DNA from: Paenisporosarcina sp. HGH0030 | Lineage (GTDB): Bacteria > Bacillota > Bacilli > Bacillales_A > Planococcaceae | Direction: 5' to 3' | DNA length: 64,000 bases | Assembly: GCF_000411295.1 (NCBI RefSeq) | Contig: NZ_KE150421.1 | Location: 435,324 to 499,323 of the forward strand | Shown: piece after piece, positions 56,503-64,000 of the stretch | Layout of the letters: the number at the start of each line of letters is the position of its first letter | How positions within the stretch are numbered: position 1 is the stretch's first letter | Position numbers and translations under genes: made by a program | The notes under the pieces: model-generated | What the model was told of the DNA's origin: nothing | Seen by the model: the letters and a program-made list of their open reading frames with translations, nothing else | Database searches by the model: none

Positions 56503-57596
56503 TTTTGATTTATTTATCTGAGACGCTATTATATTTGTGTTTTTCACTGATAACGGGTTCACTCATCTTGTCACTTATACCCGGTAGTAGAAAACCGGAA
56601 ATAACCATTCGAAAACGATGGATTCAGATTTCTATTTTAGGAATTGTGATCTTTTCCCTCTTTCCGGTAATACGACTCGTACTCTTTCTTTACGAGGACA
56701 TTGGGTTATGGGTAACCATACAAAATGTAATTTCTACCTTTGAAGTCGGGCAAGCATGGTCATTTACGCTGTTTGTATCAATTGCATTTTATCTGTATGT
56801 TTCCATCTTCTCGATTTTCACTAAAAAAATTCACACGGTCATTTCATTGTCCTTCACCTTTGTTCTTCTCTTAGCGTTGGGATGGGCGAGTCATTCAGCC
56901 TCTCTGAACGAGTGGAGTGGATTTGTAGCGCATTGCATCCATTTCCTAGCGGTAACAATTTGGGTCGGCATATTGATAGTAGTCAGCTGGTTTTCGGTGA
57001 ATTCTGCAAACTGGTTAACATTTTTAAAATGGTTTACGCCCGTAGCCATAAGCTGCTTATTGGTAGTAGCTGCGTCAGGGTACTTTCTGATGACTTTAGT
57101 TATTGATTTGAACAATTATGCAGATACTTGGATTCTCCCATATGGACAATCTTTGCTTATTAAGCACTTAATACTTATTCCCATAATCTTTTTTGCAATT
57201 ATCAACGGAATTTGGATGAAGCGAAAAATTCAAAAGGACTCAACTATTAATCCACGTAATTGGGTTAAAGCGGAGAGTTTTACTCTACTATTAATTTTCT
57301 CGGCGACAGCTGTCCTTGCACAACAAGAAGCACCACATGACATTGACTCAGAAGCTGCCAGTAATGGAATGGCGAGATTATTTAGTACAGTTTACTCCGA
57401 ATCTATTTCTTTACCCATCGATGCTTCCATGGATTTAAACATGTTAGGGATTCTCTTTTTTGGACTATCCATCTGTTTCTTATCCTTTGCTTGGGTTGCG
57501 ACGATGAAAAAGTTCTCGCCTCTTATAGCCTTTAGTATGAGCATTTTATGTATGATTTCCATGTATTTAGGGTTAATGAACAGTGTAGTTTTCTAA
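56499..57596 (+). CDS. CopD family copper transport membrane protein
   Basis: 365 residues with eight or more helices. CopD-like features include GWASHSASLNEWSGFVAHCIHFLAVTIWVG (His-rich helix in family position), LPYGQSLLIKHLILIPI and an SFTLLLIFSATAVLAQQ segment. In Bacillus the homologous YcnJ has CopC and CopD fused; here they are separate, translationally coupled. Likely takes up copper for the oxidase in the same island (inference). Confidence 0.85.
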   Translation: MILIYLSETLLYLCFSLITGSLILSLIPGSRKPEITIRKRWIQISILGIVIFSLFPVIRLVLFLYEDIGLWVTIQNVISTFEVGQAWSFTLFVSIAFYLYVSIFSIFTKKIHTVISLSFTFVLLLALGWASHSASLNEWSGFVAHCIHFLAVTIWVGILIVVSWFSVNSANWLTFLKWFTPVAISCLLVVAASGYFLMTLVIDLNNYADTWILPYGQSLLIKHLILIPIIFFAIINGIWMKRKIQKDSTINPRNWVKAESFTLLLIFSATAVLAQQEAPHDIDSEAASNGMARLFSTVYSESISLPIDASMDLNMLGILFFGLSICFLSFAWVATMKKFSPLIAFSMSILCMISMYLGLMNSVVF

Positions 57597-57635
57597 TTAA
57601 AGTATATAGCAGTGTTGAACTTAAAGAATTCCAAT

Positions 57636-57740
57636 ATGAAGTTTGCAGTAATCGTAACAATTGTTGCGGTAGCTTTACTGGCTGTGATTGTAGTTATGAG
57701 TAGCAATAAAAGTCAGGAACAAGTCTCGCGATATATATAA
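57636..57740 (+). CDS. Short hydrophobic peptide, possibly a truncated exported protein
   Basis: 34 residues: MKFAVIVTIVAVALLAVIVV and MSSNKSQEQVSRYI. It looks like the N-terminal signal anchor of a longer exported protein (thioredoxin-like proteins in this context often start so), cut off by a stop. No ribosome binding site stands out. Probably a remnant. Confidence 0.35.
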   Translation: MKFAVIVTIVAVALLAVIVVMSSNKSQEQVSRYI

Positions 57741-57795
57741 TAGATGTAATACATAAAGTGCATGGATATTTTCATTGAAAATTGTAAATGTTTAA

Positions 57796-57951
57796 AGAGA
57801 GCAAACCGAGGAAAAACTGCAAAGACAGTATATTCTCGGTTTTTCTATAGACAATGTATATTTCAAACTTAATAGCAATTTCATTCCTAAACTGAATCCA
57901 GAAATGAAACAATTCGCAAAATTAATGGAAGGTAATAAAATAGAAGATTGA
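57796..57951 (+). pseudogene. Open-frame remnant after copD
   Basis: A start-less frame of 51 codons reads TEEKLQRQYILGFSIDNVYF, then KLNSNFIPKLNPEMKQFAKL and MEGNKIED. Lys/Asn-rich sequence looks like the end of a lost gene. I do not recognise the family. Together with the peptide upstream it suggests a deletion scar between copD and the phosphatase gene. Confidence 0.3.
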
Positions 57952-58061
57952 AAAAGCAGTTCATCAAAAAAGTGTTGGTCGTAATTTTGAAGATATACCT
58001 CAAATACGCATAAGCCTGTCTTTATTGAACGAGGTTTAATACATGTAAAGGTGTGATTTTA

Positions 58062-58592
58062 ATGAAGAAGGCTATATTTTTGGATCGTGACGGAGTTATT
58101 AATGAAGTGCTAACGGATAGAGTTAAATTTGTAAATAAGCCACATGAGCTATACTTCTTACCTGGTGTTCCAGAAGCCATTAAAAAATTGAATCCTTTCT
58201 TTGATTTCATATTTGTAGTAACTAATCAAGGCGGTGTTGGATTGGGATTCATGAAAGAAACTGAGCTCAATAAAATACATGACCATATGATTTCTGAATT
58301 AAAGAAGGAAGGGGCAGTTATTCATGACGTGGCTTATTGTCCTCATAAACCAAAATCGGGCTGCGCCTGTCGCAAGCCAAATAGCAAGTTAATTATAGAT
58401 CTCAGTAAAAAGTATGATATTGATTTATTTCAATCCTACATGGTGGGAGACACCGATACAGATATTATTGCAGGGAAAAAGGCAGGGACAAAGGGAGTAT
58501 TCTTGGGTAAGAGTGATCCACTTGCAGATGCTGTTTTCCCGGACTTAATAAGTGCTGTGGATTGGATTATAGAAGATGCCACTGCGAAGTAA
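58062..58592 (+). CDS. HAD-IIIA phosphatase, GmhB-like (heptose bisphosphate phosphatase family)
   Basis: 176 residues. HAD motif I D8-R-D10 in AIFLDRDGVINE, motif II in VVTNQGGVGLGFM, the zinc loop with CPHKPKSGCACRKP and motif IV in MVGDTDTDIIAGKKAG. In Gram-negatives GmhB makes heptose monophosphate for LPS; in a Gram-positive the substrate is uncertain, perhaps another sugar bisphosphate for surface glycans. ATG 58062 follows AAAGGTG. Confidence 0.8.
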   Translation: MKKAIFLDRDGVINEVLTDRVKFVNKPHELYFLPGVPEAIKKLNPFFDFIFVVTNQGGVGLGFMKETELNKIHDHMISELKKEGAVIHDVAYCPHKPKSGCACRKPNSKLIIDLSKKYDIDLFQSYMVGDTDTDIIAGKKAGTKGVFLGKSDPLADAVFPDLISAVDWIIEDATAK

Positions 58593-58615
58593 AGCATGCT
58601 TGTTATTCGCTTTAA

Positions 58616-58810
58616 GAAGATAGTGTCCGCTTTAGGCAACTGTTTGTTCTTAGATTCGGTATCATACATTGTGTAGCAGATTTAGGTGTTTTCGGGATGT
58701 TAGGTGAATTTCTTGAGGATATGAAAATTGAAGATTACGGATGGATACATGTTAAAGGAACGCTTTCGTCGTCTATTATCAGCCTTTTATATCAACAATC
58801 CCTGTGTTAA
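58616..58810 (+). pseudogene. Remnant of a TIGR03943/DUF1980 (YcgQ-type) protein, C-terminal domain
   Basis: Without a start codon, a frame reads EDSVRFRQLFVLRFGIIHCV, ADLGVFGMLGEFLEDMKIED and YGWIHVKGTLSSSII before TAA 58808. The order FV-x-R-F-x-I-x-x-C-V-A-D, then G-x-L and W-x-x-V-x-G-T matches the C-terminal domain of TIGR03943 proteins, which pair with a permease of the YraQ/YcgR type. The rest of that gene and the permease are absent, so this is a deletion remnant next to the metal island. Confidence 0.6.
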
Positions 58811-59199
58811 CTGTAAAAGGTTGAAAAAAACAACAGATCCGAAAGACCAATATGTATATAGTACATATTAATTTTTTTTGTGAAAAGAAACGTAAAAATA
58901 GCTACTTTTAACGTTTCCCTTACCACTTGTAATAAAATAGTAGAAAAGGGTGGGCTTTTCAGATGGAACAATAAATCAAGATAAGAGGAACAGTTGTAAA
59001 CACTCGTTAATGAACTTGACTAATCGATGAGAACTTCATGAAAATAATTAACCCAAAGAAAATCTTGCTATGGATTCAAAAATGACTGCCTTTAATCGGC
59101 AGTCATTTCAGACTGTAGACAAACAAAGAAATGAGTGAATATAAATGTATACTATTGAAAAAGAGCCTATGCAAGTAAATGTTGATTTCCATTGCGGCA
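58811..59199 (+). other. Intergenic region before the cassette array
   Basis: No supported gene. A perfect hairpin AATGACTGCC (59081-59090) / GGCAGTCATT (59098-59107) could act as a weak terminator. A short frame from ATG 59145 (MYTIEKEPMQVNVDFHCGSS, to TAA 59253) runs into the direct repeat; it has no ribosome binding site and is probably a truncated gene. Confidence 0.4.
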
Positions 59200-59412
59200 G
59201 TAGCTTTGAAATAAAGTTTGACAATTTAAAACAAAGTCCGATAATTTCTAAATAAGTTTGATCATTTATTAATAAAGTTTGATTAAAATTATCTCACCTC
59301 TATCGTTTCTTAGAATTGAGGTGATTTTTTTGTTGGATATTTATGTTAATTTCACTATAAAGATTGTGAAAAAATGTACTTAAACTAACGGAGCAGGTTA
59401 GTTCAATAAGAA
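59200..59412 (+). repeat. Long direct repeat, copy 1
   Basis: About 213 bases very similar to 60693-60889. Shared parts include GTAGCTTTGAAATAAAG, a terminator stem CTCACCTC/GAGGTGA with T7, GATATTTATGTTAAT, and GTGAAAAAATGTACTTAA directly before the AACTAAC/GTTAGTT palindrome. Copy 1 has about 16 extra bases (an additional AAGTTTGATCATTTATT segment). Confidence 0.85.
59383..59403 (+). repeat. Cassette-boundary palindrome, copy 1
   Basis: AACTAAC, GGAGCAG-type 7-base loop, GTTAGTT, followed by CAATAAGAA. It ends the first long direct repeat. Confidence 0.85.
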
Positions 59413-59511
59413 GGCTTTTTTGGAATGCTGTTGAATAAGTTAATATATGTGAATTTTTGAACAAAAGGGGAAGGGGTTTTAAGGAGTGCTTTATATCAAG
59501 GGGGAAATTGA

Positions 59512-59703
59512 ATGGATATTAATATCTTAATCTTACCAATGATTAGTACACTGTTAGGTTTGTATTTAGTTTGTCTGGGACTTTGGGAATTAAGAGTTGG
59601 TTTAGATAGAAAAAGATTTATAACCTTCTCGTTTACAGGGCTATTTTTAATCTTCATATTGCCTGATATTTTTGGACTTCAATTGATTTATAACCCTCAA
59701 TAA
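59512..59703 (+). CDS. Small two-helix membrane protein, unknown
   Basis: 63 residues with two hydrophobic segments (ILILPMISTLLGLYLVCLGL and ITFSFTGLFLIFILPDIFGL) separated by a basic loop (RVGLDRKRF). AAGGGGGAAA precedes ATG 59512. First gene after palindrome copy 1; orphan, no family recognised. Confidence 0.6.
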   Translation: MDINILILPMISTLLGLYLVCLGLWELRVGLDRKRFITFSFTGLFLIFILPDIFGLQLIYNPQ

Positions 59704-59765
59704 GGGGGTCGGTTTCTAATTGGTAAATTATGTTATAATTTATTAATAACGGGGGGGTTTGAGTG

Positions 59766-59975
59766 ATGAGAACTAAGATTTTTGAATGGATTGGTTTCAT
59801 TATCGTTTGCGTCTCGTTATATGCTAATGCATCTTTTCGTGCAGATGGTACTAACACGGGGACAGGAATAAACTTAACAGTAATCGGGATGATTATGGGT
59901 GCAGTTCTTACTTGTACTTTTTTCTATATTAGGAAGTTTGGAAATAAAGGGGTACATAATAAGTCGACAAATTAA
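59766..59975 (+). CDS. Small two-helix membrane protein, unknown
   Basis: 69 residues: MRTKIFEWIGFIIVCVSLYA, a polar loop SFRADGTNTGTG, a second helix (LTVIGMIMGAVLTCTFFYI) and a basic tail. GGGGGG lies 8 bases upstream of ATG 59766; GTG 59763 is an alternative. A promoter-like TATAAT-like element (TTATAATTT) occurs near 59733. Followed after 25 bases by palindrome copy 2. Confidence 0.6.
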   Translation: MRTKIFEWIGFIIVCVSLYANASFRADGTNTGTGINLTVIGMIMGAVLTCTFFYIRKFGNKGVHNKSTN

Positions 59976-60000
59976 CCTGCTATTTTATCTCAACTTCTTT

Positions 60001-60021
60001 AACTAACGGGGCTGGTTAGTT
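60001..60021 (+). repeat. Cassette-boundary palindrome, copy 2
   Basis: AACTAAC, 7-base loop GGGGCTG, GTTAGTT, followed by CAATAAGAA exactly as in copy 1; the next gene starts 36 bases later. Confidence 0.88.
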
Positions 60022-60056
60022 CAATAAGAATAAATATTTTTTCCGAGGGGGACTTG

Positions 60057-60353
60057 ATGATAACGAAAAAGATAAAAAAGAGGCATTTAACTAGTGCATT
60101 ACTTGTTCTTATTTTTATTTTATCTATGGCGACAAACCCAACAAAACAGGCATACCTTCAGTTTATTGGTTGGGAAGAAATACCTGAAAGTATTCATATT
60201 CAAATTGAAAGAGTCAACTTCTTTATGTTTTCAACCTACACTCCAATTGTAGCTCACGAATCTGGAATTACTCATTTGGGTATATTTGGACACTTCTATC
60301 AGATTTCAGATGGTCAGTTTGATTATCCGTGGTGGTTGGAGTTCTTCAACTAA
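60057..60353 (+). CDS. DUF4359-like small exported protein
   Basis: 98 residues with an N-terminal signal/anchor (HLTSALLVLIFILSMATNPT) and a mature domain with YLQFIGWEEIPESIHIQIER, FFMFSTYTPI and a YPWWLEFFN end. The NPT-K-x-x-Y start of the mature part fits DUF4359. It is the intact relative of the frameshifted gene at 43148-43437. The stop codon (AAC TAA C) lies inside the following partial palindrome. ATG 60057 follows GAGGGGGA; TTG 60054 is possible. Confidence 0.65.
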   Translation: MITKKIKKRHLTSALLVLIFILSMATNPTKQAYLQFIGWEEIPESIHIQIERVNFFMFSTYTPIVAHESGITHLGIFGHFYQISDGQFDYPWWLEFFN

Positions 60354-60430
60354 CAGGTGCTTTAGTTAAAGATCATCGGGCTGATTGTCAGCCATTTTCT
60401 TATTGAACTAACGGGGCAGGTTAGTTGAAC
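60348..60430 (+). repeat. Compound cassette junction with palindrome copy 3
   Basis: Partial palindrome AACTAACAGGTGC...TTTAGTT (60348-60366) overlaps the previous stop codon; a terminator stem GGCTGA/TCAGCC with TTTTC follows; then TTCTTATTG and the full palindrome AACTAAC-N7-GTTAGTT (60406-60426, loop GGGGCAG). Confidence 0.88.
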
Positions 60431-60503
60431 AAAAAGGTGAGAATTCATCTCTCTTTTATGTCGAATTTGATTCATATTGTGAAAGAATGAGGAGGGGTTA
60501 TAA

Positions 60504-60707
60504 TTGGCTAATAAATATTGTCCTATATGTGGAGAGGAAAACGAATGTATGACAGGAAGAGTAGAACACGGTAACTGCTGGTGTGATACAGAAGGCGTAT
60601 TTCCTATTGGAATCTTTGAGTTAGTTCCTACAGAGAGTATAAGGAAGAATTGTATATGTAAAAAATGTGTAAATAAATATAGGGACGAAGCTGTAGCTTT
60701 GAAATAA
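60504..60707 (+). CDS. Cysteine-rich CWC family protein
   Basis: 67 residues starting at TTG behind GAGGGG. CPICGEENECMTGRVEHGNC with WCDTEGVFPIGIFELVP and NCICKKCVNKY give the CPxCG, CWC and CxCKxC pattern of the cysteine-rich CWC family (a zinc-ribbon-like fold). Function unknown. Its last codons lie at the beginning of the second long direct repeat. Confidence 0.78.
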   Translation: MANKYCPICGEENECMTGRVEHGNCWCDTEGVFPIGIFELVPTESIRKNCICKKCVNKYRDEAVALK

Positions 60708-60889
60708 AGTTTGATCATTTAAAACAAAGTTCGATAATTTCTAATATAAAAAAGTTTGATTAAAATTATCTCACCTCGATCTTTTCTTAGAATTGAGGTG
60801 ATTTTTTTGCTGGATATTTATGTTAATATCACTATAAAGATTGTGAAAAAATGTACTTAAACTAACGAGGCAGGTTAGTTGAATAAGAA
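60693..60889 (+). repeat. Long direct repeat, copy 2
   Basis: About 197 bases matching 59200-59412 except for point changes and one indel. It includes the end of the CWC gene, a terminator stem (CTCACCTC/GAGGTGA, T7) and palindrome copy 4. The two copies bracket about 1.3 kb with three or four genes. Confidence 0.85.
60860..60880 (+). repeat. Cassette-boundary palindrome, copy 4
   Basis: AACTAAC, loop GAGGCAG, GTTAGTT, followed by GAATAAGAA; inside the second direct repeat. Confidence 0.86.
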
Positions 60890-60978
60890 AATAAAATTTT
60901 TAAATTTGCAAACCAAGCAATTATTAGATATGTGCAGGTATTCTCAACAGTAGTAATACATAATAAGGGGGAGAAAAT

Positions 60979-61170
60979 GTGAATAAGGATAAAATAAAAG
61001 GATTTTATTATTTATGGGTTTTAGTATTATTTTTTGAGTTGGCATGGCTATATATTGTAAATTACAGTACTGATTCAGCTGATGACCTTATATTTGTGGT
61101 AACCGTAATTGCGGCTACACTTACAGTTGGGGCAGTTGGGCTAAAATTGTTCGGGGAATCAGATGATTAG
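60979..61170 (+). CDS. Small two-helix membrane protein, unknown
   Basis: 63 residues: FYYLWVLVLFFELAWLYIV, an acidic loop (STDSADD), LIFVVTVIAATLTVGAVGL and an acidic end. Start is GTG close to GGGGGAGA. Nothing recognisable; third membrane orphan in this array. Confidence 0.55.
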   Translation: MNKDKIKGFYYLWVLVLFFELAWLYIVNYSTDSADDLIFVVTVIAATLTVGAVGLKLFGESDD

Positions 61171-61184
61171 AAGAAAATATATTC

Positions 61185-61262
61185 AACTAACGGGTGCTTT
61201 ACTTCAATAAGGAGTGAAGCATTTGTTCTTATTGAACTAACGGGGCAGGTTAGTTCAATAAG
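61185..61262 (+). repeat. Compound cassette junction with palindrome copy 5
   Basis: AACTAACGGGTGC (61185-), terminator stem GCTTTACTTC/GAGTGAAGC, then a full palindrome whose arms extend to 14 perfect bases: CTTATTGAACTAAC (61228-61241) and its complement (61249-61262) around GGGGCAG. Confidence 0.9.
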
Positions 61263-61284
61263 TGTATTAAAAAAGTTATATTTT

Positions 61285-61324
61285 ACCATCTGTAAAACAT
61301 CTGTGTAGATGTTTTACAGATGGT
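61285..61324 (+). repeat. Long perfect hairpin upstream of the RHH regulator
   Basis: Two 18-base arms, ACCATCTGTAAAACATCT (61285-61302) and its exact complement (61307-61324), around GTGT, followed by TATTTTTAG. Could be a terminator or an operator of the adjacent ribbon-helix-helix gene. Confidence 0.8.
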
Positions 61325-61383
61325 TATTTTTAGTTGTATAATAACATATATATAAAATTAGATGGTGAGAGGATGGTAATCAG

Positions 61384-61761
61384 ATGGCTGAAACTGAAAA
61401 GATAACAATAAACATGAATGTTGTGGATTTGGGAAAGGTTGATTTATTAGTTGAACAGGGGTTTTATTCTAATCGTACTGACTTTATTAAAACATCTATC
61501 CGTAATCAATTATCGATTCATGCCAATGTTGTTGATAATATCATTACTGACAAGTCATATGTAATTGGAGTTAGCCATTACAATAGAGAATCGCTAGAAA
61601 AAGTCTTGGAGCAAAATAAAATATTAGATATTAAAGTAGTTGGAATGCTGGTTTTTGCAGACGACATAGACGAAGAATTAGCGATTAAAACCATTAAATC
61701 TCTGAAAGTCTTTGGCGTACTCAAAGCAACTCCAGAGATAAAAAAAGTTTTAAAACAATAA
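61384..61761 (+). CDS. Ribbon-helix-helix (CopG-type) regulator
   Basis: 125 residues. KITINMNVVDLGKVDLLVEQ and GFYSNRTDFIKTSIRNQLSI form a beta strand and two helices of a CopG/Arc fold; the C-terminal half (YVIGVSHYNRESLEKVLEQN, IKVVGMLVFADDIDEELAIK) is an added domain of unknown role with a NikR-like layout. Likely a DNA-binding dimer. A perfect hairpin lies 60 bases upstream. The gene sits between palindrome copies 5 and 6. Confidence 0.7.
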   Translation: MAETEKITINMNVVDLGKVDLLVEQGFYSNRTDFIKTSIRNQLSIHANVVDNIITDKSYVIGVSHYNRESLEKVLEQNKILDIKVVGMLVFADDIDEELAIKTIKSLKVFGVLKATPEIKKVLKQ

Positions 61762-61771
61762 TGCTTACTTC

Positions 61772-61850
61772 AACTAACGGGTGCTTTACTTCATTAAGGA
61801 GTGAAGCCTTTTTTCTTATTGAACTAACGCAGCAGGTTAGTTGAAGTAAG
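61772..61850 (+). repeat. Compound cassette junction with palindrome copy 6
   Basis: AACTAACGGGTGC (61772-), terminator GCTTTACTTC/GAGTGAAGC with T6, CTTATTG, then AACTAAC (61822-61828), loop GCAGCAG, GTTAGTT (61836-61842) and GAAGTAAG. Same plan as the junction at 61185. Confidence 0.9.
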
Positions 61851-61892
61851 TTCCTAAAACTCCCGAAATTTATGATATAGAAAGCTATATAA

Positions 61893-61922
61893 TAAGAGCC
61901 GTCATGAGACGCTCTTTTTTTA
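61893..61922 (+). terminator. Terminator or attenuator ahead of the ECF sigma gene
   Basis: AAGAGCCGTC and GACGCTCTT pair (one bulge) around ATGA, then T7. Separates the small-gene array from the sigma operon. Confidence 0.7.
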
Positions 61923-62017
61923 ATGTTGGCAGAACCGCTGTTTTTTCCTTGAAAAAGAAAAAGTTGAAACTTTTTTATAATAATCTAGCTCTAATAAGCG
62001 GAAAGGAGGTCAAATTG

Positions 62018-62563
62018 ATGAAAGAACTTAACCTAATTAAAAAGTCGATAAAGGGAAACAAGGGATGTCTAGAGGAACTTCTTGTTATAAACGGCGATCA
62101 ATTGTACCGTACTGCTTATTTGTATGTTCGAAATAGGGAAGATGCCTTGGATGTTGTTCAAGAGACATCCTATAAAGCTTTTTTATCAATTGGTAAATTG
62201 AAAAATGAAGAGTTCTTTTTAACTTGGCTAACAAAAATACTTATAAACTGTTCGTATGATGTCTTAAAAAAGAGCAAGAAAGAATTACCTTTGAACAATA
62301 TGATCGAGCTTACTGCGGATAAAAGGGAAAAAAGAGAGGAGATTCTAGACTTATTAGAGGCTATTAATAGTCTAGATAAAAAGCATAAAAATGCTATCAT
62401 TCTTTTTTATTTTCATGATCTCCCTATAAGTGAAGTGGCTAATGTGATGAACATACCGGAAAGTACTGTAAAAACTTATTTGAGTAGAGGGAAAGATCGA
62501 TTAAAAAAATTGTTAGGAGGAATGAACTGTAATGGAGAAAAAATCATTTCGAGAAGTATATGA
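62018..62563 (+). CDS. ECF-type RNA polymerase sigma factor
   Basis: 181 residues: region 2 with LYRTAYLYVRNREDALDVVQ and ETSYKAF, LTWLTKILINCSYDVLKK, and region 4 with DLPISEVANVMNIPESTVKT and YLSRGKDRLKK. ATG 62018 follows AAAGGAGG; TTG 62015 is an alternative. TGAAAC at 61965-61970 could be the -35 of an autoregulated ECF promoter, but no matching -10 is clear. It overlaps the DUF4179 gene, the usual partner, which probably controls it. Confidence 0.88.
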   Translation: MKELNLIKKSIKGNKGCLEELLVINGDQLYRTAYLYVRNREDALDVVQETSYKAFLSIGKLKNEEFFLTWLTKILINCSYDVLKKSKKELPLNNMIELTADKREKREEILDLLEAINSLDKKHKNAIILFYFHDLPISEVANVMNIPESTVKTYLSRGKDRLKKLLGGMNCNGEKIISRSI

Positions 62564-63893
62564 GAAAATTGAAGTACCTAAAGATGGTGTTTTAAATGCA
62601 ATAAAGTCCGGAAAGGAACGTGCTAGTCATAATGGACCCGAAAATAAAAAAAGTACAAAAGTTGTATGGTTTTCAGTTGCTGCTGCAACTATATTTATTT
62701 CTTCAAGTTTCATTTCTCCTTCAATATCTCACGTTATGGCGGAAGTACCGTTTCTAGGAAATGTGTATACTGCTTTCAGTGATGCTGTAGGTCGAGATTT
62801 ACAATCCCAAGATTTGATAACAGAATTGAATCAAACCTATAGTTATAAAGGTGTAGATGTATCTATTACAAATGCTTATTATGATGGAGCTGTCGTAGGA
62901 GTTGCTTTTTCTGTTAAAGGAAATGTAAAAACGGAAGAAGATGGAAGTGTTCAAGGGTTTTATGAAATATTTGATGGTAAAGATGGCATTTCTGATAGTA
63001 AAGAAATCGTATATATGGAGCCATCAGAGAATGGCTATATAGGGCATATACAATTAAGCTATCCAAAAACAGAATTACCTTCAGAAACTTCTTTCCCACT
63101 TGAATTTAAGAGAATAGGTACAAAGGAAGGAAGTTGGCGATTCGACGTTCCGATAAACCAATTACCATACGAGACAGTATATGTTGACAAAGGAACTAAC
63201 GAAGAGGATGCAGAAATTAATGTTCATTTCGATTCAATTATTGAAGGTAAAGCATCAACAGCTATTAATTATACAGCTACTTTTCCAATTCAAGGAAAAC
63301 ATGATCAAGTACGACTAGAGGCATATGATGATCAAGGTAAAGAAATCAATATCTCCATAGACGGAATAGACCTAGAAACTGTCAAAGAGAACAATAGAAT
63401 TATTGTTAAAGGCAGAAGTATTATTCCACAGTCTATAAAGGGAGAAACTAGTTATATAGAGGTTCTTCCTAAAGTGGCATTAAGTGAACCTGATCATTTT
63501 ATTAAGTTAGATGAAGCAACTCCTGTCGAAGTTAATGCTGAAAGGCAAGATTTAGCTGTTGGAATAGAAAATATTATCAAGACAGATAAGAGCATTACTT
63601 TTGATTTCCAAATAAATAATGGTAATAACATGAATCAACACTTTACGGTTTTTAGTAATTTTGCCCGAAATGATGTCACTTTGGTTAAAGAATCAGAAAA
63701 AGAGATTTATGAGAAGCCGATTAAACACTCAGTCGAAGTAATTAACAAAGATAACTTACGCTTTACAAGCACATTTGATATTAGTGAAATTGATGATTTT
63801 AACCTAGATGACTATGTAATAAGAGTTAATATGGGTTCATTGAGTGCCAATATTCCTGTTGAGTTAGAGAAAGTTAAAATTGATTTAAATTAA
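62532..63893 (+). CDS. DUF4179 membrane protein, probable anti-sigma factor
   Basis: 453 residues. A cytoplasmic N-terminus of about 45 residues (EVYEKIEVPKDGVLNAIKSG), one membrane helix (VVWFSVAAATIFISSSFI), then a DUF4179 domain (FLGNVYTAFSDAVGRDLQ) and a large beta-rich extracellular part. This layout and the 32-base overlap with the sigma gene fit membrane anti-sigma factors paired with ECF factors in Bacillales. Signal sensed outside is unknown. Confidence 0.8.
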   Translation: MEKKSFREVYEKIEVPKDGVLNAIKSGKERASHNGPENKKSTKVVWFSVAAATIFISSSFISPSISHVMAEVPFLGNVYTAFSDAVGRDLQSQDLITELNQTYSYKGVDVSITNAYYDGAVVGVAFSVKGNVKTEEDGSVQGFYEIFDGKDGISDSKEIVYMEPSENGYIGHIQLSYPKTELPSETSFPLEFKRIGTKEGSWRFDVPINQLPYETVYVDKGTNEEDAEINVHFDSIIEGKASTAINYTATFPIQGKHDQVRLEAYDDQGKEINISIDGIDLETVKENNRIIVKGRSIIPQSIKGETSYIEVLPKVALSEPDHFIKLDEATPVEVNAERQDLAVGIENIIKTDKSITFDFQINNGNNMNQHFTVFSNFARNDVTLVKESEKEIYEKPIKHSVEVINKDNLRFTSTFDISEIDDFNLDDYVIRVNMGSLSANIPVELEKVKIDLN

Positions 63894-63909
63894 ATGGAAA
63901 ATCTTTTAA

Positions 63910-63946
63910 TAGCCAACCTTTGTTTATCGAGGGTTGGCTTTTTTAT
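63910..63946 (+). terminator. Terminator after the sigma/anti-sigma operon
   Basis: AGCCAACCT and AGGGTTGGCT arms around about 10 bases, then T6. The last 50 bases of the window show no gene. Confidence 0.85.
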
Positions 63947-64000
63947 AAACAAAATTTAAATTGTTGAAGAAAAAGCTTTTGATAATTGGAAACTTATATC

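Follow-up and report, generated by a model that had tools for sequence, protein, structure and literature searches.

Do the near-identical palindromes that separate a run of small, unrelated genes in the genome of Paenisporosarcina sp. HGH0030 mark the boundaries of mobile gene cassettes, or are they dispersed repeats beside genes that stay where they are? The question was raised by a first-pass annotation of a 64,000-nucleotide window (positions 435324-499323 of contig C1, in a genome of 3.52 Mb and 5 contigs), which read the run as cassettes comparable in logic to an integron array. Comparison of this genome with a second one of the same species (G105) and with those of related Bacilli supports the cassette reading: the run very probably belongs to an integron-like system, in which units would be moved by a linked, 279-residue Xer-like tyrosine recombinase through site-specific recombination within the palindromic core. 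As a working definition, a unit would be the stretch from one core to the next.

The palindrome AACTAAC-N7-GTTAGTT occurs in exact form six times in the window (0.23 sites expected by chance; no count of six in 100 shuffles), always in one orientation and with GGGGCAG-like loops. These B-type cores (AACTAACGGGGCAGGTTAGTT) lie on the plus strand at 59383..59403 (spacer GGAGCAG, common with G105, where it stands at 1596158), 60001..60021 (the final site shared in place with G105 before the arrays diverge), 60406..60426, 60860..60880 (GAGGCAG), 61235..61255 and 61822..61842 (GCAGCAG). Partial palindromes, the A-type cores (AACTAACGGGTGCTTTAGTT; AACTAAC followed by AGGTGC or GGGTGC), lie on the same strand at 60348..60367 (AGGTGC) and, from the core search, at 61185..61204 and 61772..61791 (both GGGTGC). 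Behind each of the three come first a hairpin, then CTTATTG and then a full site; the one at 60348 contains the stop codon of the preceding open reading frame (ORF 60054-60353). The ORFs of the array are carried by the plus strand as well; two match Pfam families above the cut-off, Cys_rich_CWC (ORF 60504) and RHH_8 (ORF 61384), and Pfam finds no family above its cut-off for the remaining four. The six positions, their single orientation and loops, the fuller layout of three junctions, the stop codon inside a partial palindrome, the plus-strand genes, the CWC protein and the ribbon-helix-helix regulator had been described in the first-pass annotation, and this description holds. Past the window the array goes on, and further cores lie at window-equivalent 64064, 65040 (5 mismatches), 65295, 65423, 65775, 65836 and 66189.

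The cassette reading is carried by the comparison with G105, a single contig with 147 sites (up to 3 mismatches; reversed control 0) that is mostly 97-99.9% identical to HGH0030 across long collinear blocks. At the window array the left flank and the first unit are common up to the site at 60001; past it lie 6.2 kb in HGH0030 and 19.3 kb in G105 of unlike content, and the two genomes rejoin at an A-type core (C1:501512). For homology blocks of at least 90% identity and at least 150 bp, with the ends of the stretches excluded, 63 of 136 block ends have a core (up to 4 mismatches) within 25 bp, compared with 5.3 ± 2.6 and a maximum of 15 in 1000 circular shifts; the count is 67 when 5 mismatches are allowed. 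Whole-unit matches in the G105 arrays retrieved were found for 56 of 138 HGH0030 units, both neighbours being kept by 19, one by 20 and neither by 17, the last group including in-place units at array edges (e.g. unit 1 of the window) and three 105-bp modules without genes. Within the HGH0030 arrays, 42 blocks are duplicated (at least 85% identity, at least 110 bp), 16 with both ends at a core and 15 with one, i.e. 47 of 84 ends against a shifted-core null of 3.3 ± 2.2 (maximum 12); the CWC gene of the window is present again at C1:105955 and C1:586754. Further afield, 22 units of HGH0030 or G105 match units at further loci (identity 84.6-97.8% along more than 80% of the unit). Of these, 19 have their match in Paenisporosarcina sp. 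OV554, a member of the genus (G003 has this integrase locus too), and three in other genera: two rows come from Sporosarcina highlanderae (L019) and the third from Psychrobacillus vulpis (L043). These comparisons show that the two genomes differ by whole units, and that some units have relocated, with their ends at the palindrome.

Sites are numerous across HGH0030, where the pattern with up to 2 mismatches is found at 159 places (reversed control 53), in clusters and without the even spread that the first-pass annotation had named as grounds for rejecting its own reading. The clusters lie near 97-108, 494-501, 560-612, 642-659, 985-1037 and 1366-1398 kb on C1 and near 42-48 and 502-507 kb on C2, with further smaller groups outside the stretches retrieved for analysis. 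Those stretches (about 377 kb, window included) hold 110 B-type cores when up to 5 mismatches are allowed; the A-type cores number 91 with up to 4, and both types together 166 with up to 3. Each cluster is unidirectional, and all of these 166 cores face the direction of positive GC skew, as do 201 of 205 cores in G105, the four exceptions sharing one weakly skewed stretch. Genes keep to this direction less strictly: the longest ORF with a ribosome-binding site lies on the site strand in 74 of the 123 HGH0030 units of 150-3000 bp (opposite in 15, none in 34) and in 427 of all 707 units (opposite in 75, none in 205). The consensus site, typed out and folded, gives an unbroken 14-bp stem with a 7-nucleotide loop on either strand, a stable hairpin of -11 kcal/mol as DNA; should the coding strand of the site be the reactive one, it would lie on the lagging-strand template.

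The first-pass annotation stated that no integrase is present, which is true inside the window, but an integrase ORF lies 123 bp beyond the window end at 499323 (C1:499447-500286, minus strand). It encodes the 279-residue tyrosine recombinase, antisense to the array and next to an attI-like edge, TAATAAC (positions 1363-1369 of locus L119, just past the window), the attI-like site itself lying roughly 80 bp upstream of where the integrase starts. PF00589 is matched at 8 places in HGH0030. Two integrase copies have an identical matched protein (C1:499450-500286 and 587943-588779), each antisense to its array and each part of a duplicated block (1.27 kb, 99.2% identity); another copy of this platform, the third, is truncated, and integrase remnants lie at 635268 and at 1022257, the latter adjoining a site. 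When 30 platforms were compared (at least 76% identity, two being the HGH0030 copies), a conserved block upstream of the integrase was found to end in core-like (A/C/T)TAACG in 29 (one mismatch allowed; the exception is L041), and the heads beyond this edge are variable, with 2 of 406 pairs alike at 70%. This is an arrangement of attI type, with a fixed site beside the integrase and variable cassettes beyond. An A-type core lies behind the integrase stop codon in 26 of the 30 (loose match, up to 6 edits; not in L141, L146, L148 or L159), and in Peribacillus the integrase (61-62% identity) is also between sites, there in the same direction as the sites.

The protein retains R138, K162, K165, H228, R231, H254 and Y263 throughout 18 aligned homologues. 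It just passes the XerA-type model NCBIfam NF040815 (224.2 bits, cut-off 220) and fails the integron integrase model TIGR02249 (95.9 bits, cut-off 265), for which HGH0030 has no match at E <= 1e-60 and 2 of 398 Bacillota genomes score above the cut-off. The best relatives in the PDB are XerA- and XerD-type, and align without a long insertion. A tree of 30 rows places the homologues, which come from several families of the class, in a single group (support 99/99) and IntI (two rows, one genome) outside it, the deep branches being weak and long. PMC2426708 gives an additional domain as an IntI-specific feature; in a six-row alignment it is seen only in IntI (L216), and the integrase lacks it. 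On these alignments the enzyme is Xer-like and not an IntI.

Integrase and sites co-occur well beyond this species. The exact 21-mer is present in at least 109 stretches, many from Viridibacillus, Sporosarcina, Paenisporosarcina, Peribacillus and Psychrobacillus. Among 250 genomes of the order, 88 match the integrase at E <= 1e-40 and 78 hold the exact 14-mer (the counts taken as the same draw); at 70% identity or more, the integrase is found in 17 of the 22 genomes that have five or more sites, compared with 24 of the 228 that have fewer (Fisher p = 2.5e-11, on hand-transcribed counts uncorrected for phylogeny). At class level a match at E <= 1e-90 is found in 20 of 398 genomes. A match at E <= 1e-40 is found in 20 of 35 genomes chosen for holding the site, in some cases only by fragments or at 43-59% identity. 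Seven plasmid records carry the integrase (E <= 1e-50), in five cases across 80% or more of its length, and on plasmid pSP10-266k of Sporosarcina psychrophila sites lie around it; the 14 phage records that match are all at 29-37% identity. Site variants differ with diverged integrases, GGCTAACGGGACACGATAGTT being found near a 52% homologue and a few AACAAT-TGGCCCG-ATTGTT near a 67% one. Near integrases of 62-68% identity, a search for other types of array had a mixed outcome, with no or few site-like repeats at L239, L240, L242, L243 and L244 and some at L241, L245, L246 and L247. The recombinase that the first-pass annotation suggested seeking beside arrays is thus found in HGH0030 and in other genera, and the comparisons show its linkage to the sites, the conserved-to-variable edge beside it and the uniform direction of the sites.

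Four further sets of loci are noted separately. L241 (G235) and L208 have the AACAAT-TGGCCCG-ATTGTT palindrome a few times near integrases of 66-68% identity, and at L251 (G960), from another family of the class, GGCTAACGGGACACGATAGTTCAA-like sites form an array close to an integrase of 52% identity. L067, labelled Arthrobacter, has one exact site and 42% GC and, by the yardstick of the usual GC content of that genus, is probably a mislabelled Bacilli contig. On L252 (Peribacillus plasmid NZ_CP084540) groups of recombinase genes that we take to be Tn554-like lie in or near cassette arrays.

Where within the core the units are joined can be approached from 1180 core records (HGH0030, G105 and other loci), by comparing pairs that share only the left side (tail) with pairs that share only the right side (head). 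The B-type pairs form 55 tail and 42 head clusters over all species, where the background mixes species, and 29 and 14 in HGH0030 and G105 alone. Over all species, the tail exceeds background in identity as far as C7, and the head does so beginning at about position 11-16. In HGH0030 and G105, the base before the core tracks the tail (0.87, head 0.17, background 0.32) and positions 16-22 track the head (position 22: 0.89, tail 0.61, background 0.37). The spacer type (GGGTGC or GGGGCAG) tracks the right-hand side: among pairs differing in spacer type, 61 are tail-sharing (21 clusters) versus 1 head-sharing over all species, and 9 (8 clusters) versus none in HGH0030 and G105. By these comparisons the exchange lies within the core and, judged by the spacer type, left of position 11, most likely with a cut at AACTAAC^GGG, our best guess; a repeat of the profile for pairs of B-type cores (B-B) in HGH0030 and G105 upheld the link of spacer type to head and left the cut position unfixed. 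In the mechanism that we propose, units would be excised, inserted and swapped by recombination at this point, carried out by the linked recombinase; they would pass through circles, and new ones would enter at the attI-like site or at sites within arrays. The substrate would be one folded strand, the coding strand, which would lie on the lagging-strand template.

Several observations weigh against this mechanism. At a few places to the left of the putative cut (+1 and 7) head-sharing pairs are raised as well, and the B-B junction profile is blurred, positions 9, 10 and 15 being near background on both sides. Complementarity between the head and tail of the same unit, expected if circle sites were perfect, is weak (4.65 vs 4.41 in HGH0030), perfect matches show no excess, and the outer arms at 110 HGH0030 junctions have no mean complementarity above shuffles (4.49 vs 4.53 ± 0.08). 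Perfect outer-arm matches in HGH0030 and G105 stand at 9.5% vs 6.8%, with 40 of 1000 shuffles as high, and a small mean excess in other species (4.21 vs 4.02) could come from the mixing of species. In the genome comparison, 73 of the 136 block ends lie away from any core, and the search of HGH0030 against G105 gave no clean single-unit empty/filled pair, the candidate rows listed being unconvincing inserts of 14 and 19 kb at one G105 core; of the 63 exact 14-mers in HGH0030, 12 fall outside the retrieved stretches. The integrase is present in 24 of 228 site-poor genomes, is missing at 70% identity from 5 of 22 site-rich ones, has no match at E <= 1e-40 in 15 of the 35 genomes chosen for holding the site, and has no intact copy in G105 with its 147 sites. 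Judging by G105 and these 5 and 15 genomes, arrays persist without the enzyme.

Some of these observations speak for the alternative that survives best, namely that RecA-type homologous recombination or transformation between short repeats shuffles the units, with the integrase as a passenger. The arrays differ in G105 although it has no intact integrase, no clean single-unit event was found and the junction profile is blurred, as this alternative would have it; yet the shared stretch is merely 21-35 bp, gene tails occur before either spacer although the A and B spacers differ, and the conserved-to-variable edge beside the integrase ends in the same core, and we consider it improbable. We think it very unlikely that the host XerC and XerD move the units, as with pdif modules, leaving the linked integrase unneeded: the integrase is indeed Xer-like and missing from G105, and both genomes have genes that we label as likely XerC/XerD, but the special integrase is far commoner in site-rich than in site-poor genomes, the site variants change near diverged integrases, and sites are unidirectional within clusters. 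Least credible is that the palindrome is a dispersed repeat (a repetitive extragenic palindrome, REP, or a miniature inverted-repeat transposable element) or a terminator hairpin beside immobile genes, for although the consensus is a stable hairpin, often behind a terminator-like hairpin, and perfect outer arms are somewhat commoner than shuffled in HGH0030 and G105, this is refuted as a full account because units differ and relocate as wholes, recurring with changed neighbours and ends at the core. Also against it, the HGH0030 outer arms lack mean co-variation, the genome has no Y1 transposase (PF01797) at E <= 0.001 and Rfam has no match in window positions 57000-64000. REP/Y1 elements of the IS200-IS605 type were considered and rejected, HGH0030 being without PF01797.

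Read as cassettes moved by the linked recombinase, the window array divides into the following units, all on the plus strand. Unit 1 (59390..60007; ORFs 59512-59703 and 59763-59975, small and by eye of membrane type) is matched in place in G105. Unit 2 (60008..60354) holds ORF 60054-60353, with a weak DUF4359 match below the cut-off, and has a homologous block at C1:583069-583438. The CWC gene (ORF 60504-60707, PF14375) is in unit 3 (60413..60866), ORF 60979-61170 in unit 4 (60867..61191) and the RHH_8 gene (ORF 61384-61761, PF17723) in unit 5 (61242..61778). Unit 6 (61829..64000) continues beyond the window to the core at window-equivalent 64064, with two ORFs, one that ends at 62563 and by eye looks sigma-factor-like, the other of 453 residues (62532-63893); this two-gene unit (61904-63893, between the cores at 61822 and 64064) has no counterpart in G105 at that place. 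The median distance to the next core is about 60 bp for A-type units and 610 bp for B-type units, and the units of about 60 bp, a partial palindrome with a terminator-like hairpin, look like separate terminator mini-units (60355..60412, 61192..61241 and 61779..61828).

A gene-less module of about 105 bp with an ACACTTA end, which precedes cores at C1:591086, 986199, 1009741 and 1010585, looks like a further mini-unit. A repeat pair of 87.5% identity (59197-59382 and 60690-60859) contains a terminator-like hairpin together with direct repeats resembling AAAGTTTGAT(C/A)ATTT and ends in ATGTACTTA ahead of a core; parts of it match Priestia records and one Klebsiella plasmid record, and it is possibly the end of another element. 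As to cargo, 79 hand-chosen proteins from HGH0030 units match 68 Pfam families, six of the 25 cargo families shown having more than one member protein, and PADLOC assigns 11 families of one member each, the best being a generic WYL model (4.8e-45).

Integrons are reported to be very rare in Firmicutes, the account of IntegronFinder 2.0 giving one complete case, in Limnochorda pilosa, and a few clusters of attC sites lacking an integron integrase (CALIN) (PMC9024848). We found no description of the present system among the papers listed by searches of open-access PubMed Central, a scope outside which most subscription papers and all bioRxiv preprints fall. Our data suggest that the Bacilli possess an integron equivalent of their own, one that searches based on IntI and attC are not expected to detect, with more than 100 sites in one genome, some cassettes common across genera and copies on plasmids. 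It could account for how small orphan genes come and go in these genomes, and would be an independent test case for the origin of integron-like systems. A bolder proposal, which we offer tentatively and at less than even chances, is of a second integron system that evolved independently in Bacilli from a Xer-like recombinase, with folded single-stranded sites on the lagging-strand template, a polarity that is mirrored with respect to the genes, and the integrase inside a cassette; if true, such a platform could move to any site and found a new array.

Among known systems, XerA, XerC and XerD have family and catalytic residues in common with the Bacilli integrase, which differs from them in forming a separate group, in being confined to a minority of genomes and in its linkage to cassette arrays. 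The XerCD/dif (pdif) modules are alike in having small genes between Xer-type sites and a Xer-like enzyme; pdif sites alternate in orientation, whereas the Bacilli sites run in one direction (166 of 166 HGH0030 cores follow the GC skew), in long arrays with a dedicated, linked recombinase. CALIN resemble the arrays without intact integrase, as in G105, but the Bacilli sites are not attC by structure. An attC site, as PMC2727003 describes it, has R and L boxes, extrahelical bases and an unpaired central spacer. The consensus site, a plain short palindrome with an unbroken stem, lacks extrahelical bases. The statement of the first-pass annotation that the core does not match the attC consensus needs correcting as to the arms, AACTAAC/GTTAGTT differing at one position of seven from the R-box consensus RYYYAAC/GTTRRRY. 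In integrons recombination takes place at the R' box and the attC goes with the upstream gene; here the spacer type travels with the downstream side, contrary to that layout, although the B-B profile is unsharp. Exchange is apparently at the upstream edge of the site, so that most of the site would travel with the downstream gene, the mirror image of attC. Sedentary chromosomal integrons are otherwise the nearest counterpart, with a tyrosine recombinase gene antisense to the array, an attI-like edge, many small and mostly same-direction genes between short palindromic sites, exchange inside the site and a few cassettes common to different genera. Unlike theirs, the Bacilli integrase falls outside the IntI family, has no IntI extra domain and lies within a site-bounded unit (in the sense direction in Peribacillus), and the Bacilli system has terminator mini-units and many arrays per genome. 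Because it lacks the IntI family membership, the IntI domain and the attC structure, the system is not an integron by definition, yet on present evidence it appears to work like one.

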